Source: a virus. From it: DNA of 30,763 bases. The stretch is from IMG/VR virus record IMGVR_UViG_3300032242_000320, positions 1 through 30,763 of that record; one strand, given 5' to 3'. Shown in pieces: positions 5,113 to 28,525 of this stretch (its first letter is position 1; each line of letters opens with the position of its first letter). Both the position numbers and the translations under genes were made by a program. The notes under the pieces were generated by a model. It was not told the DNA's origin. It saw nothing but the letters and a program-made list of their open reading frames with translations, and ran no database searches.

Positions 5113-6650
5113 TGTCAGGACCGATACCACCACTCTTACCTCCAATTAATCCTGTCGCTCCAACGCCAGAACAAAGTGCTGCAGCCAAAGCTAAAGCAGA
5201 AGCAGAAGCTAAAGCAAAAGCGGCAGCAGCAGCTAAAGCTGCAGCAGAAGCCAAAGCTAAAGCGGAAGCTGATGCAAAAACTGCTAAAGAAGAAGCACGA
5301 AAAAAAGCTATTGCTAAAGCAAAAGCAGATGCTGCTAAAGCAAAAGCAGATGCTAATCAGCGCAAAGCTGGAACAGCAGCAACCACTGCTATGCAAAAAG
5401 AACAAGCAAATATTATGAAATTGCTTTATTCTGTTCAATATACATTTGATCCATCTGAATCAAGTAAAACAAAAAAAGAACAAGATTTAATTATAAGAAT
5501 AAATAATTATGAATTAAAATACAAAAAAAGTATTCTTGATACTGTAGATACTAAAAACAATCCCGTGTTTCAAAATTATAATACTTTAGGAACTGACAAA
5601 GTCATAACTGGTGCTGATGCTTTTAGAACATTTCTTGCATTACCAGTAGGATCTAAATACAAACCATATACTGGCACTTCAGTTCCAGTTCCTGGAGTAT
5701 CAGGTGGTCCTTCAACTACAAAAGTTTTTCCACCTGTTACACCACCCACTACACCTGCAGGTCCAGGTGGACAAGGTGGATCTAATCCTGTAAATGGTCC
5801 TGGTAAATTTATAATAAGTCAAGACAATAATGGTAATCCTGTTTACTATTGGAGTAATAACAAAACTCCAGTTAGTGCTAGTTTAATTGGCGACCCTAAT
5901 GGCAACATGTTATTAAACAGTTTTTACCCACAATACGAACGTGCACTTACTGGTGCAGGGTTAAATGCAGATAGTCCTTTATCTATGGATGCTGCGTTTT
6001 CTAAACTTACTCATGATTTAGAAGGCACTCCTGGTGCAGTAGATAAAATGAAAGACCTTCTTATTGCTAAACATATTATTCCACCTAGTGCAGTTAATGT
6101 TTCACTTAGTCAAAAAGGTGTTATTGATAATAGTATGGCTAAAGCCCTTCAATGGGTAGTTAGTGCAACTAGTGCTCATAATGTTTCTTTGTTTAATTTA
6201 GGTAAACCAAATCAAAAATTTATTGGTGTTAATGATTTTCTAAACAATATGAATCCGTTGTCTATTACAACAACTGATACACAAAAAGTTTATCAAAAAA
6301 TCATGCCTAAAGATTATGAACTAAGCATTGATCAAATGTTTCAAAATACCCTTGGTCGTGGAGCAACTAAAGAAGAGCTTGCTCATTTTTCTAAACAACT
6401 GCAATCTTATTCAGATGCTAATCCACAGCTTACTACAACAACCAAAACGGAAAATACTACTGGTGTTCCTGGTAATCCTTCTTATAATGCAACTGTAAAT
6501 CAATCTGGTGGTGTTAGTCAGGCAGCAGCAGGTGCTGAAATGCGTGATGAAGCTTTGCATACAAAAGGTGCAGAAGAATATAACAAGGGTGCTAAATATT
6601 TTAATTGGTTCCAGCAAGCAATTGGCAGCACAATGCAGTTAGGGGGTTAG
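5112..6650 (+). CDS. Structural protein with Ala/Lys coiled coil and Pro/Gly linker
   Basis: A 512-residue protein starting at the ATG that overlaps the previous stop, with AGGA a few bases upstream. It begins with a short Pro-rich tip, then residues of about 17-85 are almost entirely Ala, Lys, Glu and Gln, a strong predicted coiled coil or long single helix. A middle domain is followed by a Pro/Gly/Thr-rich linker (about residues 188-225) and a C-terminal domain that includes FQNTLGRGATKEELAHF and a low-complexity Thr/Asn/Gly tail. No catalytic motif is visible. It probably belongs with its two downstream neighbours to the set packaged inside the head or placed at the portal. The repeated AAAGCA-type codons of the coiled coil also create long false open frames on both strands, which I discarded. 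Confidence 0.85.
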   Translation: MSGPIPPLLPPINPVAPTPEQSAAAKAKAEAEAKAKAAAAAKAAAEAKAKAEADAKTAKEEARKKAIAKAKADAAKAKADANQRKAGTAATTAMQKEQANIMKLLYSVQYTFDPSESSKTKKEQDLIIRINNYELKYKKSILDTVDTKNNPVFQNYNTLGTDKVITGADAFRTFLALPVGSKYKPYTGTSVPVPGVSGGPSTTKVFPPVTPPTTPAGPGGQGGSNPVNGPGKFIISQDNNGNPVYYWSNNKTPVSASLIGDPNGNMLLNSFYPQYERALTGAGLNADSPLSMDAAFSKLTHDLEGTPGAVDKMKDLLIAKHIIPPSAVNVSLSQKGVIDNSMAKALQWVVSATSAHNVSLFNLGKPNQKFIGVNDFLNNMNPLSITTTDTQKVYQKIMPKDYELSIDQMFQNTLGRGATKEELAHFSKQLQSYSDANPQLTTTTKTENTTGVPGNPSYNATVNQSGGVSQAAAGAEMRDEALHTKGAEEYNKGAKYFNWFQQAIGSTMQLGG

Positions 6651-23923: not shown

Positions 23924-24436
23924 TTAGTTATCCCACTTCCCATTTAAGACTAGCAATCCAATAACTCCATAATTAAGGATGTCAATAAAAGTATCTTCCA
24001 AGCTTTCATTGCTTGGTGTTTTTTTGTTGCTGATTAGATTTGATAGTCGTGCTACCTTGTCATGCAATCGCACTGCTAGTCCATTGAGTGGACCACCTGG
24101 TGCGTCAGCAATATTCTTTGGACCATAATCATTATGCTTTTTAATTAGTAAACTAACAGCATCAAGTGCTATGACCAGTGCATCAGTCTCTAGCTTTGTT
24201 GGTGTTGACCTAGTGGTTACAGTTACCTTGGCATGATTCGTTTTAGTTTTAGTGTTAGCACCCCATCGGATTCCTGGGTTATATGAACTGTAGTTATGCC
24301 CGTGTTCGTAAGGGTTCTTACTATGAAGTCCATTTCGTTCTTTGTAAATTTTATTTCTTTCACGTCGCTCAAGTTCTTCTAGCTCCTTAAGATCTCTTTC
24401 TATTGCACTTGTTACACATCTCTTGCAATGACCCAT
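23924..24436 (-). CDS. DUF1599 / nucleotide-modification-associated domain protein
   Basis: A 170-residue protein overlapping the primase stop (TAATG). Residues 1-40 have a CxxC (HCKRC) and a charged helix (LKELEELERRERNKIYKERN). A linker follows, then a C-terminal domain from about residue 85: LIKKHNDYGPKNIADAPGGP, VRLHDKVARLSNLI and EDTFIDILNYGVIGLLVL. This is the pattern of the Nmad1/DUF1599 family, which is linked in phages to modified or altered nucleotide pools. The N-terminal extension is unusual to me. The modification role is family-level knowledge only; no base-modifying enzymes are visible in the window. Confidence 0.75.
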   Translation of the reverse strand: MGHCKRCVTSAIERDLKELEELERRERNKIYKERNGLHSKNPYEHGHNYSSYNPGIRWGANTKTKTNHAKVTVTTRSTPTKLETDALVIALDAVSLLIKKHNDYGPKNIADAPGGPLNGLAVRLHDKVARLSNLISNKKTPSNESLEDTFIDILNYGVIGLLVLNGKWDN

Positions 24437-25053
24437 TACATTTCTACTTTCTTTTTGAAGTATTCATTACCATGCAGTAGGTAGATGGAGTTAACATCTT
24501 CACCTTCTGGCATGTTAATAATTATAACACTACTTAGTTCCTTAGACAAGGACTTAGCAAAGTCTATACCAGGTTGATCACCATCTGCAAATACAAATAC
24601 AGTATTGAAATCCTGCAGCAGTCTGGTGTAGTGTGGCTTCCAAGAGTTAACACCTGGTACACCCACTGCTGGTATGCCACATAGGTAGTGCAAAGTTATA
24701 GCATCTATCTCACCTTCACACACAGCAATAAAATCTTTGGCTGTATGTAAAGCAGTAACATTAAATAATCTTGTTTGAGTACCAGGAAATCCTAAGTACT
24801 TGGGTTCTTCTGGACCCATAGATCTGAACCTAATATCTACTACACCTGACGGTGTGATGTATGGTATGGCTAACCTATTGACAAACTGTTCTTGTCCAGG
24901 CAATGGGTCAACGACGACCCCTAATCGAATTGCTTCTGCCACCTTTAGGGGTATCCCTCGTTTGAGAAGATACTCTTCTGCCAATGGCAGACTGTCCTCG
25001 TAATGGCTTGTAGCTTTCTCCAGTAATACTTTCTGCGATCTTGATAGCTTCAC
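24436..25053 (-). CDS. DnaG-type primase, TOPRIM subunit
   Basis: A GTG start at 25053 is preceded by GAAGGAG at nine bases and lies 146 bases inside the zinc-finger gene in another frame. The 205-residue product has the RNA-polymerase-side segment (AEAIRLGVVVDPLPG, LAIPYITPSGVVDIRFRS, PKYLGF) and a TOPRIM domain: E113-G-E115 (VCEGEIDA) and D157-G-D159 (FVFADGDQPG). These acidic residues bind the catalytic metals for primer synthesis. It lacks the zinc-binding domain, which is supplied by the overlapping upstream gene. Split primases occur in some actinophages; here the overlap is long and translation probably depends on the internal ribosome binding site. Confidence 0.85.
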   Translation of the reverse strand: MKLSRSQKVLLEKATSHYEDSLPLAEEYLLKRGIPLKVAEAIRLGVVVDPLPGQEQFVNRLAIPYITPSGVVDIRFRSMGPEEPKYLGFPGTQTRLFNVTALHTAKDFIAVCEGEIDAITLHYLCGIPAVGVPGVNSWKPHYTRLLQDFNTVFVFADGDQPGIDFAKSLSKELSSVIIINMPEGEDVNSIYLLHGNEYFKKKVEM

Positions 25054-25270
25054 GATATGTTACTCCTTCATGTAACTTAATGATATTAAAACCATTTCCT
25101 TTTATTCCACAACCGTGGCAAACAAATATGTTGTCGCCTAAAGATACACCTGCGGATGCATGACTGTCGCTATGGAATGGGCATCTAATCTTTTGCCATC
25201 CATTATAGTTATCTCTTAGTCTGCCACCGTAGTGTGCAACAACTTTATCTATTGGTATTGTTAAATCCAT
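24908..25270 (-). CDS. DnaG-type primase, zinc-finger subunit
   Basis: A 120-residue protein with a CHC2-type zinc finger: C30-x2-H33 (CPFHSDSHAS) and C51-x2-C54 (FVCHGCGIKG), which recognises template for priming. It continues into FNIIKLHEGVTYREAIKIAE, the usual helix after the finger, and ends in a basic, probably disordered tail (RVSSQTRDTPKGGRSNSIRG). That tail is encoded over the start of the TOPRIM gene in a different frame, so its composition is partly forced by the overlap. It starts 26 bases inside the end of the nuclease gene. Confidence 0.85.
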   Translation of the reverse strand: MDLTIPIDKVVAHYGGRLRDNYNGWQKIRCPFHSDSHASAGVSLGDNIFVCHGCGIKGNGFNIIKLHEGVTYREAIKIAESITGESYKPLRGQSAIGRRVSSQTRDTPKGGRSNSIRGRR

Positions 25271-25958: not shown

Positions 25959-26007
25959 GACTAACCCACCATACTAATAGTAATCCAATGATAATTTTAT
26001 TTGCCAT
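25942..26007 (-). CDS. 21-residue membrane micro-protein
   Basis: The ATG at 26007 overlaps the helicase stop (TAATG), and GAGGCAAGG provides an upstream site. The peptide is MANKIIIGLLLVWWVSHVFS followed by R: a positive start, one hydrophobic stretch with two Trp and a short end, the form of a single-pass membrane peptide. It ends 17 bases inside the DUF1003 gene in another frame. The conserved-looking gene linkage supports translation, but a chance open frame of this size cannot be excluded. Confidence 0.45.
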   Translation of the reverse strand: MANKIIIGLLLVWWVSHVFSR

Positions 26008-26792
26008 TACCTTGCCTCTTCTAAGTCTGCTATAAACATATAGCCTGGATTAAACTGTAACCATACTGGTGACTTACCACTAGCGTCTGCACGACCATAC
26101 CTATTCTTAACTGCAGCAACACCAAGTAAACCAGTAGAGTTCTGACCTACGGTCAGGATCAAAGCTGGTAACTGTGCTACTTTACCTTGTAATGAACTGC
26201 GTGGCTGACATGGTTCACCGGCATAACCTTCTTGCGTATGATGTAGTACAAGGATTGCAGCATTGGTATCACGAGCAAGATACTTAAGTTCTTTTAATGC
26301 GCTACGCATGTTACTGAACTCTTCGCCACCATCCATACTGACATCCATCAAGTTGTCAATAACAATTAGAGCAGGTGACTCTCCAAGTAATTCTTCAACT
26401 GCAGTAACTTCATCGTCAATGTCAGAAAGACTTGGGCTAGAATCAAAACTCCAGTAAATATGACTAGCCAAAGCAAGCTTATCACGAGAGCCAATAGGGT
26501 CTTCAGATATGATCTTCTCTGCTTCATGTTGTGATACTCCTGTAATCATTGAATACAAACGCATAGCCATGGTGTGTGCATTGGTATCTGCTGACAGATA
26601 AAGCGTCGGTGCATTCATGCGTAGTGCTAAAGCTAAAGCAAGCGTAGACTTACCAGCACCAGGAGTGCCAGCAATCATACTTACTTCTGCTCGTCTTAAT
26701 ATAATCTGATTGTTTTCAAATGTACGAAAGACTGTAGGCATAGGTTCACCACCTATGTCTGGTCTACCTACAGATCTAGATAGGGTTTTCAT
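26007..26792 (-). CDS. RecA/DnaB-type ATPase, probable replicative helicase
   Basis: A 261-residue single ATPase domain. Walker A is G42-TPGAGK-S49-T50, Walker B is ALIVIDNLMD with D146, and a sensor-like LVLHHTQE (182-188) follows, then QGKVAQLPALILTVGQ and a C-terminal beta pair. This is the core of DnaB or RecA-superfamily phage helicases, without the N-terminal domain of full DnaB. It would unwind DNA at the fork with the primase pair or act in recombination. It overlaps the upstream acidic gene by 17 bases and the 21-residue gene at its stop. Confidence 0.85.
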   Translation of the reverse strand: MKTLSRSVGRPDIGGEPMPTVFRTFENNQIILRRAEVSMIAGTPGAGKSTLALALALRMNAPTLYLSADTNAHTMAMRLYSMITGVSQHEAEKIISEDPIGSRDKLALASHIYWSFDSSPSLSDIDDEVTAVEELLGESPALIVIDNLMDVSMDGGEEFSNMRSALKELKYLARDTNAAILVLHHTQEGYAGEPCQPRSSLQGKVAQLPALILTVGQNSTGLLGVAAVKNRYGRADASGKSPVWLQFNPGYMFIADLEEAR

Positions 26793-27127: not shown

Positions 27128-27132
27128 CTAGA
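27111..27132. repeat. Perfect 9-base inverted repeat at the SSB-like gene end
   Basis: TCTAGTAAG (27111-27119) and CTTACTAGA (27124-27132) are separated by four bases and include the stop codon of the SSB-like gene (27128-27130). It could be an RNA hairpin protecting the 3' end or a protein-binding palindrome. There is no T-run, so strong termination is unlikely. Confidence 0.7.
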
Positions 27133-27562
27133 ATGTTTGCCACTCTGGTTCGTTGGCTTTAAGATATACAGCCTTGCACTGGTCAGGTGTACCCTTGGCA
27201 GTTGGACACATGTACGCTTTGTAAGGACCGTAAGGACCAGTACCTTCACGCTTGGTCATAACACCATGAGCACACTGACGAACTGCTGTACCTACTGCTG
27301 TGGCTGCCTGTGCTACCACTGGTGGTGCGACAGGAGCAAACGCTGGTGGTTGAATAACTTCTCCACCTAGTGTTTCAATTACAGTCTGCACTGCATCAGG
27401 AGTAGTAGACAAAACAAAATCCTCAAAGGATTCTACTGCTAAACCAAAGCCTAAGTTATATGCTTCGCTTACCTTGTTGACAAACTCTTCGGGAGTATCT
27501 CCACGTAGAGTAACCAAGCTACCACGCTTAGTCTTAACTGTTACTGTTACATTCTTTTCCAT
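27128..27562 (-). CDS. SSB-like zinc-motif protein
   Basis: I chose the ATG at 27562 (AAGGA seven bases upstream) over an in-frame TTG at 27601 that would overlap the exonuclease gene more. The 144-residue product starts MEKNVTVTVKTKRGSLVTLR, has a helical middle with FVNKVSEAYNLGFGLAVESF, then a Pro/Ala-rich linker (APVAPPVVAQAATAVG) and a C-terminal zinc-like module: CAHGVMTKREGTGPYGPYKA, then MCPTAKGTPDQC. This C-terminal module is familiar from actinophage proteins proposed to bind single-stranded DNA. Placement between exonuclease and helicase agrees. The binding function is inferred. Confidence 0.7.
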   Translation of the reverse strand: MEKNVTVTVKTKRGSLVTLRGDTPEEFVNKVSEAYNLGFGLAVESFEDFVLSTTPDAVQTVIETLGGEVIQPPAFAPVAPPVVAQAATAVGTAVRQCAHGVMTKREGTGPYGPYKAYMCPTAKGTPDQCKAVYLKANEPEWQTF

Positions 27563-27572
27563 GTTCTTTTCC

Positions 27573-28181
27573 TTACTGTTTCCATTTGCATTCTTTGACA
27601 ACGCTACACATTACACAATGATTAAAGTTTGGTAGAAAGATTTCTTGCTTACGTGCGCTGTCAAACTTAGTTACGATATCAATGATAGCACTGGTTGGAT
27701 ACTTATCCAAATTGATAAGCTCACCAATGCCACCAGTTCTAGCCATCCAGTATGCACCATACTGTGGACGGACACCAAGTATAGCTTCCATGCCAACAGC
27801 ATAAAAGGCTAACTGCAGATCTGAACTAGGTGTACGACTACCAGTCTTGATATCCAATACAACTAACTCACCATCAGGTGTAACCATTACACGATCAAGG
27901 TGCATCTGTACTGGCACATCATTCCATATGGGAGTTAGACCTAGTTCAATAGCAGGTACACCATCGCTGACTTCCCAGATTTTCCAGGCAGCATTAGTTC
28001 GCCAGTTAATCCATGAGTCAACCATGTCACTACCATTGGCTGTCCACCAACTACCATCTTCTTTGTTGGGGTTAGCTTTACTTACTCGTCCTGCTGCTTT
28101 CCACTCGGACTTGTCTACATTTGTTTTATTTAATTGTTCATTTTGTAAACGAGTCCAAGCTTCATCCCAATACTTATTCAC
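27573..28181 (-). CDS. Cas4/RecB-like exonuclease, C-terminal part
   Basis: I chose the GTG at 28181 because AAGGAG lies seven bases upstream, giving 202 residues. It contains VQMHLDRVMV (D96), LVVLDIKTGSR (D110 and K112), LQLAFYA (Q123, Y127) and three C-terminal Cys (C189, C192, C198 in HCVMCSVVKECKW). These are the PD-(D/E)xK catalytic residues and three of the four Fe-S ligands of Cas4-type nucleases. The catalytic His and the first Cys are in the overlapping upstream gene. Together they total about 270 residues, the usual length of the single-gene actinophage exonuclease. Confidence 0.85.
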   Translation of the reverse strand: MNKYWDEAWTRLQNEQLNKTNVDKSEWKAAGRVSKANPNKEDGSWWTANGSDMVDSWINWRTNAAWKIWEVSDGVPAIELGLTPIWNDVPVQMHLDRVMVTPDGELVVLDIKTGSRTPSSDLQLAFYAVGMEAILGVRPQYGAYWMARTGGIGELINLDKYPTSAIIDIVTKFDSARKQEIFLPNFNHCVMCSVVKECKWKQ

Positions 28182-28377
28182 TCCATGTCTCCTTATCGTA
28201 GGCTTCAGTTGCTTCATGCACTGCTGACCCACCAACCAGATACCATGTTGGTCGTTCTGTTACCTTAACAATACGAGTCAGATAATATTTCCACCCACAA
28301 TCTAGATAGGTTGTGAGTGAAGAGTAAGATACATGTGGTGGTAAATCATAACCATTGATCTTAACGCTCACTGCCAT
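28174..28377 (-). CDS. Cas4/RecB-like exonuclease, N-terminal part
   Basis: The ATG at 28377 gives 67 residues; an earlier frame start at 28431 would overlap the upstream gene more. The product has PPHVSYSSLTTYLDCGWKYY (C27, first Fe-S ligand) and YLVGGSAVHEATEAYD (H54, metal-binding His of the nuclease motif I), then ends at TAA 28174-28176, right over the GTG of the C-terminal gene. On its own it cannot form an active site. It must pair with the next product, be joined by frameshifting, or be part of a recently broken gene. Confidence 0.8.
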   Translation of the reverse strand: MAVSVKINGYDLPPHVSYSSLTTYLDCGWKYYLTRIVKVTERPTWYLVGGSAVHEATEAYDKETWSE

Positions 28378-28525
28378 ACTTCCTTTCATAGTAGTATTCC
28401 ATGGCAAGATCTTCGGCATCGCTTTCAGCAATAGCTTCTAATTCTTTGTTACAATTATAACATAGATCTAAATCCATTTGGAATAGTTTTTCTTTATCTT
28501 TTATATTACAGCAGTTATCTGACAT
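28361..28525 (-). CDS. 54-residue protein with CxxC
   Basis: The ATG at 28525 lies 11 bases inside the WhiB gene end and the frame closes at TAA 28361-28363, inside the start of the exonuclease N-terminal gene. The product starts MSDNCCNIKDKEKLFQMDLD, then LCYNCNKELEAIAESDAED and a basic end. C5, C6, C22 and C25 could bind zinc or iron. No strong ribosome binding site, so coupling to WhiB is required. It fills a gap that would otherwise be the only non-coding space here, which supports it. Confidence 0.6.
   Translation of the reverse strand: MSDNCCNIKDKEKLFQMDLDLCYNCNKELEAIAESDAEDLAMEYYYERKYGSER

Follow-up and report, generated by a model that had tools for sequence, protein, structure and literature searches.

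The viral record IMGVR_UViG_3300032242_000320 from IMG/VR, analysed here over its whole 30,763 nucleotides (the window), carries at positions 27,573 to 28,377 two overlapping genes, referred to as A and B, which encode the N-terminal and C-terminal parts of a Cas4-type nuclease with a predicted iron-sulfur (Fe-S) cluster. The locus is laid out as follows:

28377..28174, minus strand: gene A, 67 residues, N-terminal part of the Cas4-type nuclease
28299..28297, minus strand: C27 of A, the first Fe-S cysteine
28218..28216, minus strand: H54 of A, the motif-I histidine
28194..28189, minus strand: AAGGAG, Shine-Dalgarno-like for B, within the coding sequence of A and 7 bases before the GTG of B
28181..28174, minus strand: eight-base overlap of A and B, GTGAATAA, holding the B start codon and the A stop codon
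28181..27573, minus strand: gene B, GTG start, 202 residues, C-terminal part of the nuclease

A possible other start for gene A is an in-frame ATG at 28389 (MKGSMAVS...). Gene B lies in frame +1 relative to A, and supplies D96, D110-x-K112, Q123xxxY127, C189, C192 and C198. An earlier note on this DNA had assigned C27 and H54 to the upstream gene and D96, D110, K112 and the last three cysteines to the downstream gene, all of them correctly; its description of the junction (an eight-base overlap, a +1 downstream frame and an AAGGAG of B's own) was likewise confirmed on the sequence. The same eight-base overlap is found in the relatives L001-L005 and L007.

The products of A and B match consecutive segments of the Pfam family PDDEXK_1 (A, positions 1-50, expectation value (E) 3e-6; B, positions 67-189, E 1.5e-7), and the two joined give an E of 3.5e-17. 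Against PHROG 1870 (phage exonuclease) the joined sequence scores 1.4e-60 and B alone 5e-47, and the gene A product also matches both PHROG 1870 and PHROG 69. As judged by these matches, chance likeness is ruled out and A and B are parts of a Cas4/RecB-type PD-(D/E)XK nuclease. The catalytic residues of this type (His, Asp, (D/E)-x-K and QxxxY) are all found, H54 in A and the others in B. Cas4-family Fe-S nucleases have one N-terminal and three C-terminal cluster cysteines, and the same arrangement is seen here, with C27 in A and C189/C192/C198 in B, for which a cluster is predicted. The nuclease domain is usually found in a single polypeptide, whereas here it is spread over two genes, in 167 distinct split loci with the window among them.

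The fold was modelled on a relative, L067, in which A and B lie in one frame with a single TAG between them, read as Q, and the input alignment included intact sister sequences. The joined prediction has a Cas4-like fold (predicted local distance difference test (pLDDT) 92.2, predicted template modelling score (pTM) 0.88); an earlier prediction of the same relative without intact homologues gave a pLDDT of 68 overall, with chain A at low confidence. In the model, helices 43-65 and 74-89 are joined by a loop in which the break lies, and the confidence there drops to ~70. The best matches among solved structures are ACE1 (Cas4-family, 1e-8), the AdnA nuclease domain (3e-8), Dna2 (2e-5) and type I-C Cas4 (5e-4), with AddAB also matched, and the best viral matches are one-chain actinophage exonucleases. 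The model shows the A and B pieces making one predicted Cas4 fold when joined.

A first search of viral contigs with B returned 33 loci, and A and B were separate open reading frames (ORFs) in every one long enough to hold both. Wider viral searches gave 167 distinct loci, window included, that are split at the same protein position, and comparison of relatives thus bears out that the split is conserved; many of these loci are near-identical, leaving 27 usable representatives at <85% identity in B. Six loci with B alone begin at a contig end. The nearest relatives (L001-L004), assembled from other metagenomes, have the same break in the same place, and its recurrence in independent assemblies excludes an assembly indel. 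Both isolated Planktophila phages, LanE43AprF5 (OX376641) and LanE43AprE7 (OX376640), the isolation of which is reported in PMC10202952, are also split. The split is a feature of a large, largely freshwater, actinobacterial phage family. No relatives of A were found in the cellular genomes searched. MAFFT alignments that mixed A-only and joined rows misplaced the start of B and were excluded from the analysis.

In a single locus, L158 (1466-1960), A runs on in frame into the C-terminal half of B. A deletion there removes ~100 residues of B, D96 among them, and because of this internal loss L158 was rejected as a natural fusion and treated as a deletion or chimera: its product is a dead or altered nuclease, or else the locus is an assembly chimera.

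C27, H54 and E58 are invariant in A (159/159 sequences), as are E79, D96, D110, K112, Q123, Y127, C189, C192 and C198 in B (163/163), so that none of the ten catalytic, QxxxY and cysteine positions varies in either set. B identity among relatives goes down to about 43%. The pairwise ratio of nonsynonymous to synonymous substitution rates (dN/dS) is ~0.02-0.09 in most pairs for gene A (about 0.05), with two near-identical pairs at 0 and 0.21, and 0.08-0.16 for gene B (about 0.14); by these ratios, purifying selection is shown to act on both genes. The identities of A and B correlate across the 27 representatives (r = 0.85), a parallel divergence that fits partners, although linkage alone could give the same r. 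Among relatives, B starts with ATG in 110 cases, GTG in 10 and TTG in 2, and a Shine-Dalgarno match of at least 4 bases is found at 61% of B starts and 67% of A starts, compared to 17% of random positions.

The nuclease is encoded by one gene in several isolates, namely Streptomyces phage Success, Mycobacterium phage Rebeuca, and the Propionibacterium/Cutibacterium phages PA6 and CA1NRNZ. When a complete one-gene protein was used as the query, at least 80% of it was found at a single place in 848 of 914 phage records; of the 60 records listed, a Planktophila phage alone needed two pieces. In a large environmental sister clade from IMG/VR (L355, L362-L441; 38-41% identity in alignment A10), 81/81 loci encode the enzyme as one ORF, 277-284 residues long, and the loop holding the split point is intact and variable in length. 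In the intact sister L355, the nuclease is followed by the same kinds of neighbour as in the window (a gene in the gp49-like position and the ATPase). The statement in the earlier note that related actinophages encode this enzyme in one gene therefore holds for the isolates and the sister clade, but not for the nearest relatives, all of which are split.

In a maximum-likelihood tree of 53 proteins, all split forms lie on one side of a branch with support 97/92, and the intact sister clade is supported at 100/100. The tree itself infers no root; the direction, a break rather than a fusion, is taken from the outgroups, because all of them are one-gene. On this reading, a single ancient event broke the gene in a loop that joins two helices and varies in length, and both pieces have been retained ever since. 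Together, the intact sister clade, the outgroups and the single origin identify a gene in pieces, that is, an ancestral single ORF that is now two genes without splicing.

About 25 kinds of junction geometry occur among the 167 distinct split loci, ranging over overlaps of 1 to 47 bases, TAATG, ATGA, exactly abutting genes, and inserts of 72-955 bases. Where there is no insert, the frame of B relative to A is +1 in 77 loci, +2 in 64 and 0 (past a stop) in 5; in the remaining 21, one or two whole genes of several unrelated kinds lie between A and B. The insert products include a zinc-ribbon-like protein of 35 residues and acidic proteins of 62-76 residues, and others have 26, 58-60, 71, 78, 108, 129, 171 and 107+218 residues. 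No match to a homing endonuclease was found among ten inserted genes scanned against Pfam and PHROGs, though one may since have been lost. Different phages have unrelated small genes at the break between A and B, which gives it the look of a place where genes have been gained repeatedly. Inserts were seen in L008, L012, L029, L071, L080, L111, L119, L137, L225, L243 and L257; those at L029 3483-3998 (171 residues) and L111 2597-2986 (129 residues) have no Pfam or PHROGs match.

We propose, with a probability of roughly 0.8, that A and B are the two chains of one nuclease, sharing its active site and ligating, 1+3, an interchain [4Fe-4S] cluster. The two chains would be translated separately, and in many members coupled through the overlap and B's own ribosome-binding site. 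The A chain (67 residues) would bring the N-terminal helices, and with them the first cysteine of the cluster as well as the motif-I histidine; the B chain (202 residues) would bring the remaining nuclease core with D96, D110-x-K112, QxxxY and the last three cysteines. The chains would associate through the surfaces that adjoined each other when the ancestor was a single chain. In the rebuilt active site, A would supply His and B Asp/Asp/Lys, and of the four ligands of a single [4Fe-4S] cluster one would come from A and the other three from B. The split itself would have arisen once by a break in the loop, at a site that later accepted other genes. Assembly of the heterodimer is strongly implied by the conservation, and the cluster and nuclease activity are predicted from the family. 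Among the explanations raised in the earlier note, the two-chain nuclease is the one left over and is backed by the conservation; its obligate nature, with an enzyme active only when both chains are together, is what we infer from sequence.

Some points weigh against this proposal. The fold model is that of a covalently joined relative, and speaks to one fold, not to the binding of separate chains. The case for a two-chain enzyme is built from sequence and predicted fold, and a +1 shift could still yield some fused protein in 77 loci, the window included.

Given its family and its neighbours (the DnaB-like ATPase and the split primase genes), the nuclease probably serves in DNA end processing during phage replication or recombination. 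Rather more speculatively, and with the odds against it, we hypothesize that A works as a small activating subunit, able to detach, and so gates a nuclease that is potentially self-harmful: B alone would be inactive, with its cluster incomplete, and would be switched on only when A brings the histidine and the fourth ligand, under the control of timing, cluster supply or the variable inserted genes.

The best surviving alternative to the two-chain nuclease is that A and B are independent, A having some other job and B being degenerate, a DNA-binding or structural protein, with no joint nuclease. Some split phage genes may indeed be fossils, and the joint activity here is a prediction; however, the catalytic and cysteine positions, which are useful only together, are invariant across 159-163 sequences, and the parallel divergence of A and B (for which linkage alone is also a sufficient explanation) points the same way, so that independence appears unlikely.

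Still less probable is programmed +1 ribosomal frameshifting at the overlap, which would give a single fused nuclease, with A alone as a by-product. It is favoured by the +1 frame of B in the window and 76 other loci, and by the frame of B being open for 78 bases upstream of its start. However, the frame is not conserved, being +2 in 64 loci and 0 with a stop in 5, and whole genes stand between A and B in 21; the occurrence of all three frames together with inserted genes excludes the programmed +1 event suggested in the earlier note as a mechanism of the family. Moreover, the junction sequences vary by group, inspection showed no common slippery motif, and B has a start codon and Shine-Dalgarno sequence of its own.

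Joining of the pieces at a later step, by intron splicing, ribosomal bypass or split-intein trans-splicing, is highly improbable. The inserts of some relatives superficially resemble interruptions, but in most loci the genes overlap or abut and there is nothing to remove; the inserts that were examined consist almost wholly of one or two short genes, each with a start of its own, and show no match to any homing endonuclease family, and the end of A and the start of B leave no space for an intein domain. Finally, a fresh disruption, whether a sequencing or assembly indel or a gene decaying in this phage alone, could appeal to the intact one-gene relatives in other actinophages, but this last suggestion of the earlier note is refuted by the 167 distinct split loci, and the identical break in independent assemblies, the two split isolates, the invariance of all key residues and a dN/dS well below 1 in both A and B leave it practically no weight.

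The one-gene actinophage exonucleases (Success gp36, Rebeuca gp69 and PA6 gp37; PHROG 1870) likewise contain His/Asp/Asp-x-Lys/QxxxY and four cysteines, and are also encoded near a DnaB-like helicase gene. They differ in being one polypeptide, at ~30% identity, in which the loop between the first two long helices is unbroken. CRISPR Cas4, AddB/AdnA and Dna2 have the Cas4 nuclease fold in common with the split enzyme, but in them a single chain holds all four cysteines. Among the annotated neighbours (phage replication and WhiB genes) nothing indicated a CRISPR context, in the absence of a systematic search for cas genes or arrays.

To our knowledge, the well-studied split phage enzymes are single cases linked to introns, inteins or homing endonucleases. 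For one of these, NrdA of Aeromonas phage Aeh1 (nrdA-a/nrdA-b), PMC3653736, which cites Friedrich et al. 2007, describes an enzyme encoded by two genes that functions although it has no self-splicing intron, and attributes the split to a homing endonuclease (mobE). The nuclease resembles Aeh1 NrdA as a phage enzyme made from two separate genes. In contrast to the endonuclease at the Aeh1 break, none of the ten examined inserts encodes a homing endonuclease; the nuclease split is also old and clade-wide, and divides both the catalytic residues and the Fe-S ligands. No earlier description of a split Cas4-type nuclease was found in the literature searched, the coverage of which was incomplete. 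While phage enzymes in pieces are already known, what is new here is a clade-wide gene in pieces that divides both a catalytic motif and metal ligands.

Throughout an environmental phage clade, an Fe-S nuclease is thus maintained as two separate parts, the smaller of which, a 67-residue chain, bears the catalytic His and one cluster ligand. Two questions thereby become testable: can the addition of a small subunit assemble and turn on an Fe-S nuclease, and can a broken gene go on serving as a place where new genes insert? For a two-part conditional nuclease, the naturally occurring split point is a ready-made design. In annotation pipelines, a gene as short as A may be missed or mislabelled.

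The surroundings of the locus are a phage replication module, with a DnaB/RecA-like ATPase, two primase genes, a WhiB gene and a DUF932 gene; the WhiB gene points to an actinobacterial host. The neighbouring genes are:

28361..28525, minus strand: upstream gene of 54 residues, overlapping the start of A in an operon arrangement
27128..27601, minus strand: downstream gene, resembling mycobacteriophage L5/D29 gp49 (PF25690, E 2.5e-5, below the cut-off)
26007..26792, minus strand: DnaB/RecA-like AAA ATPase, the second conserved neighbour (AAA_25, 4e-18)

In both the intact sister L355 and Planktophila phage F5 (L035), the nuclease is likewise followed by a gene in the gp49-like position, and both also have a gene similar to that of the ATPase. 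The primase, too, is divided: its CHC2 zinc-ribbon and TOPRIM parts are separate ORFs, which lie at 24436..25053 and 24908..25270 of the window on the minus strand with a 146-base overlap. A matching two-gene primase arrangement is present in Planktophila phage F5, at 5590-5979 and 5828-6454.
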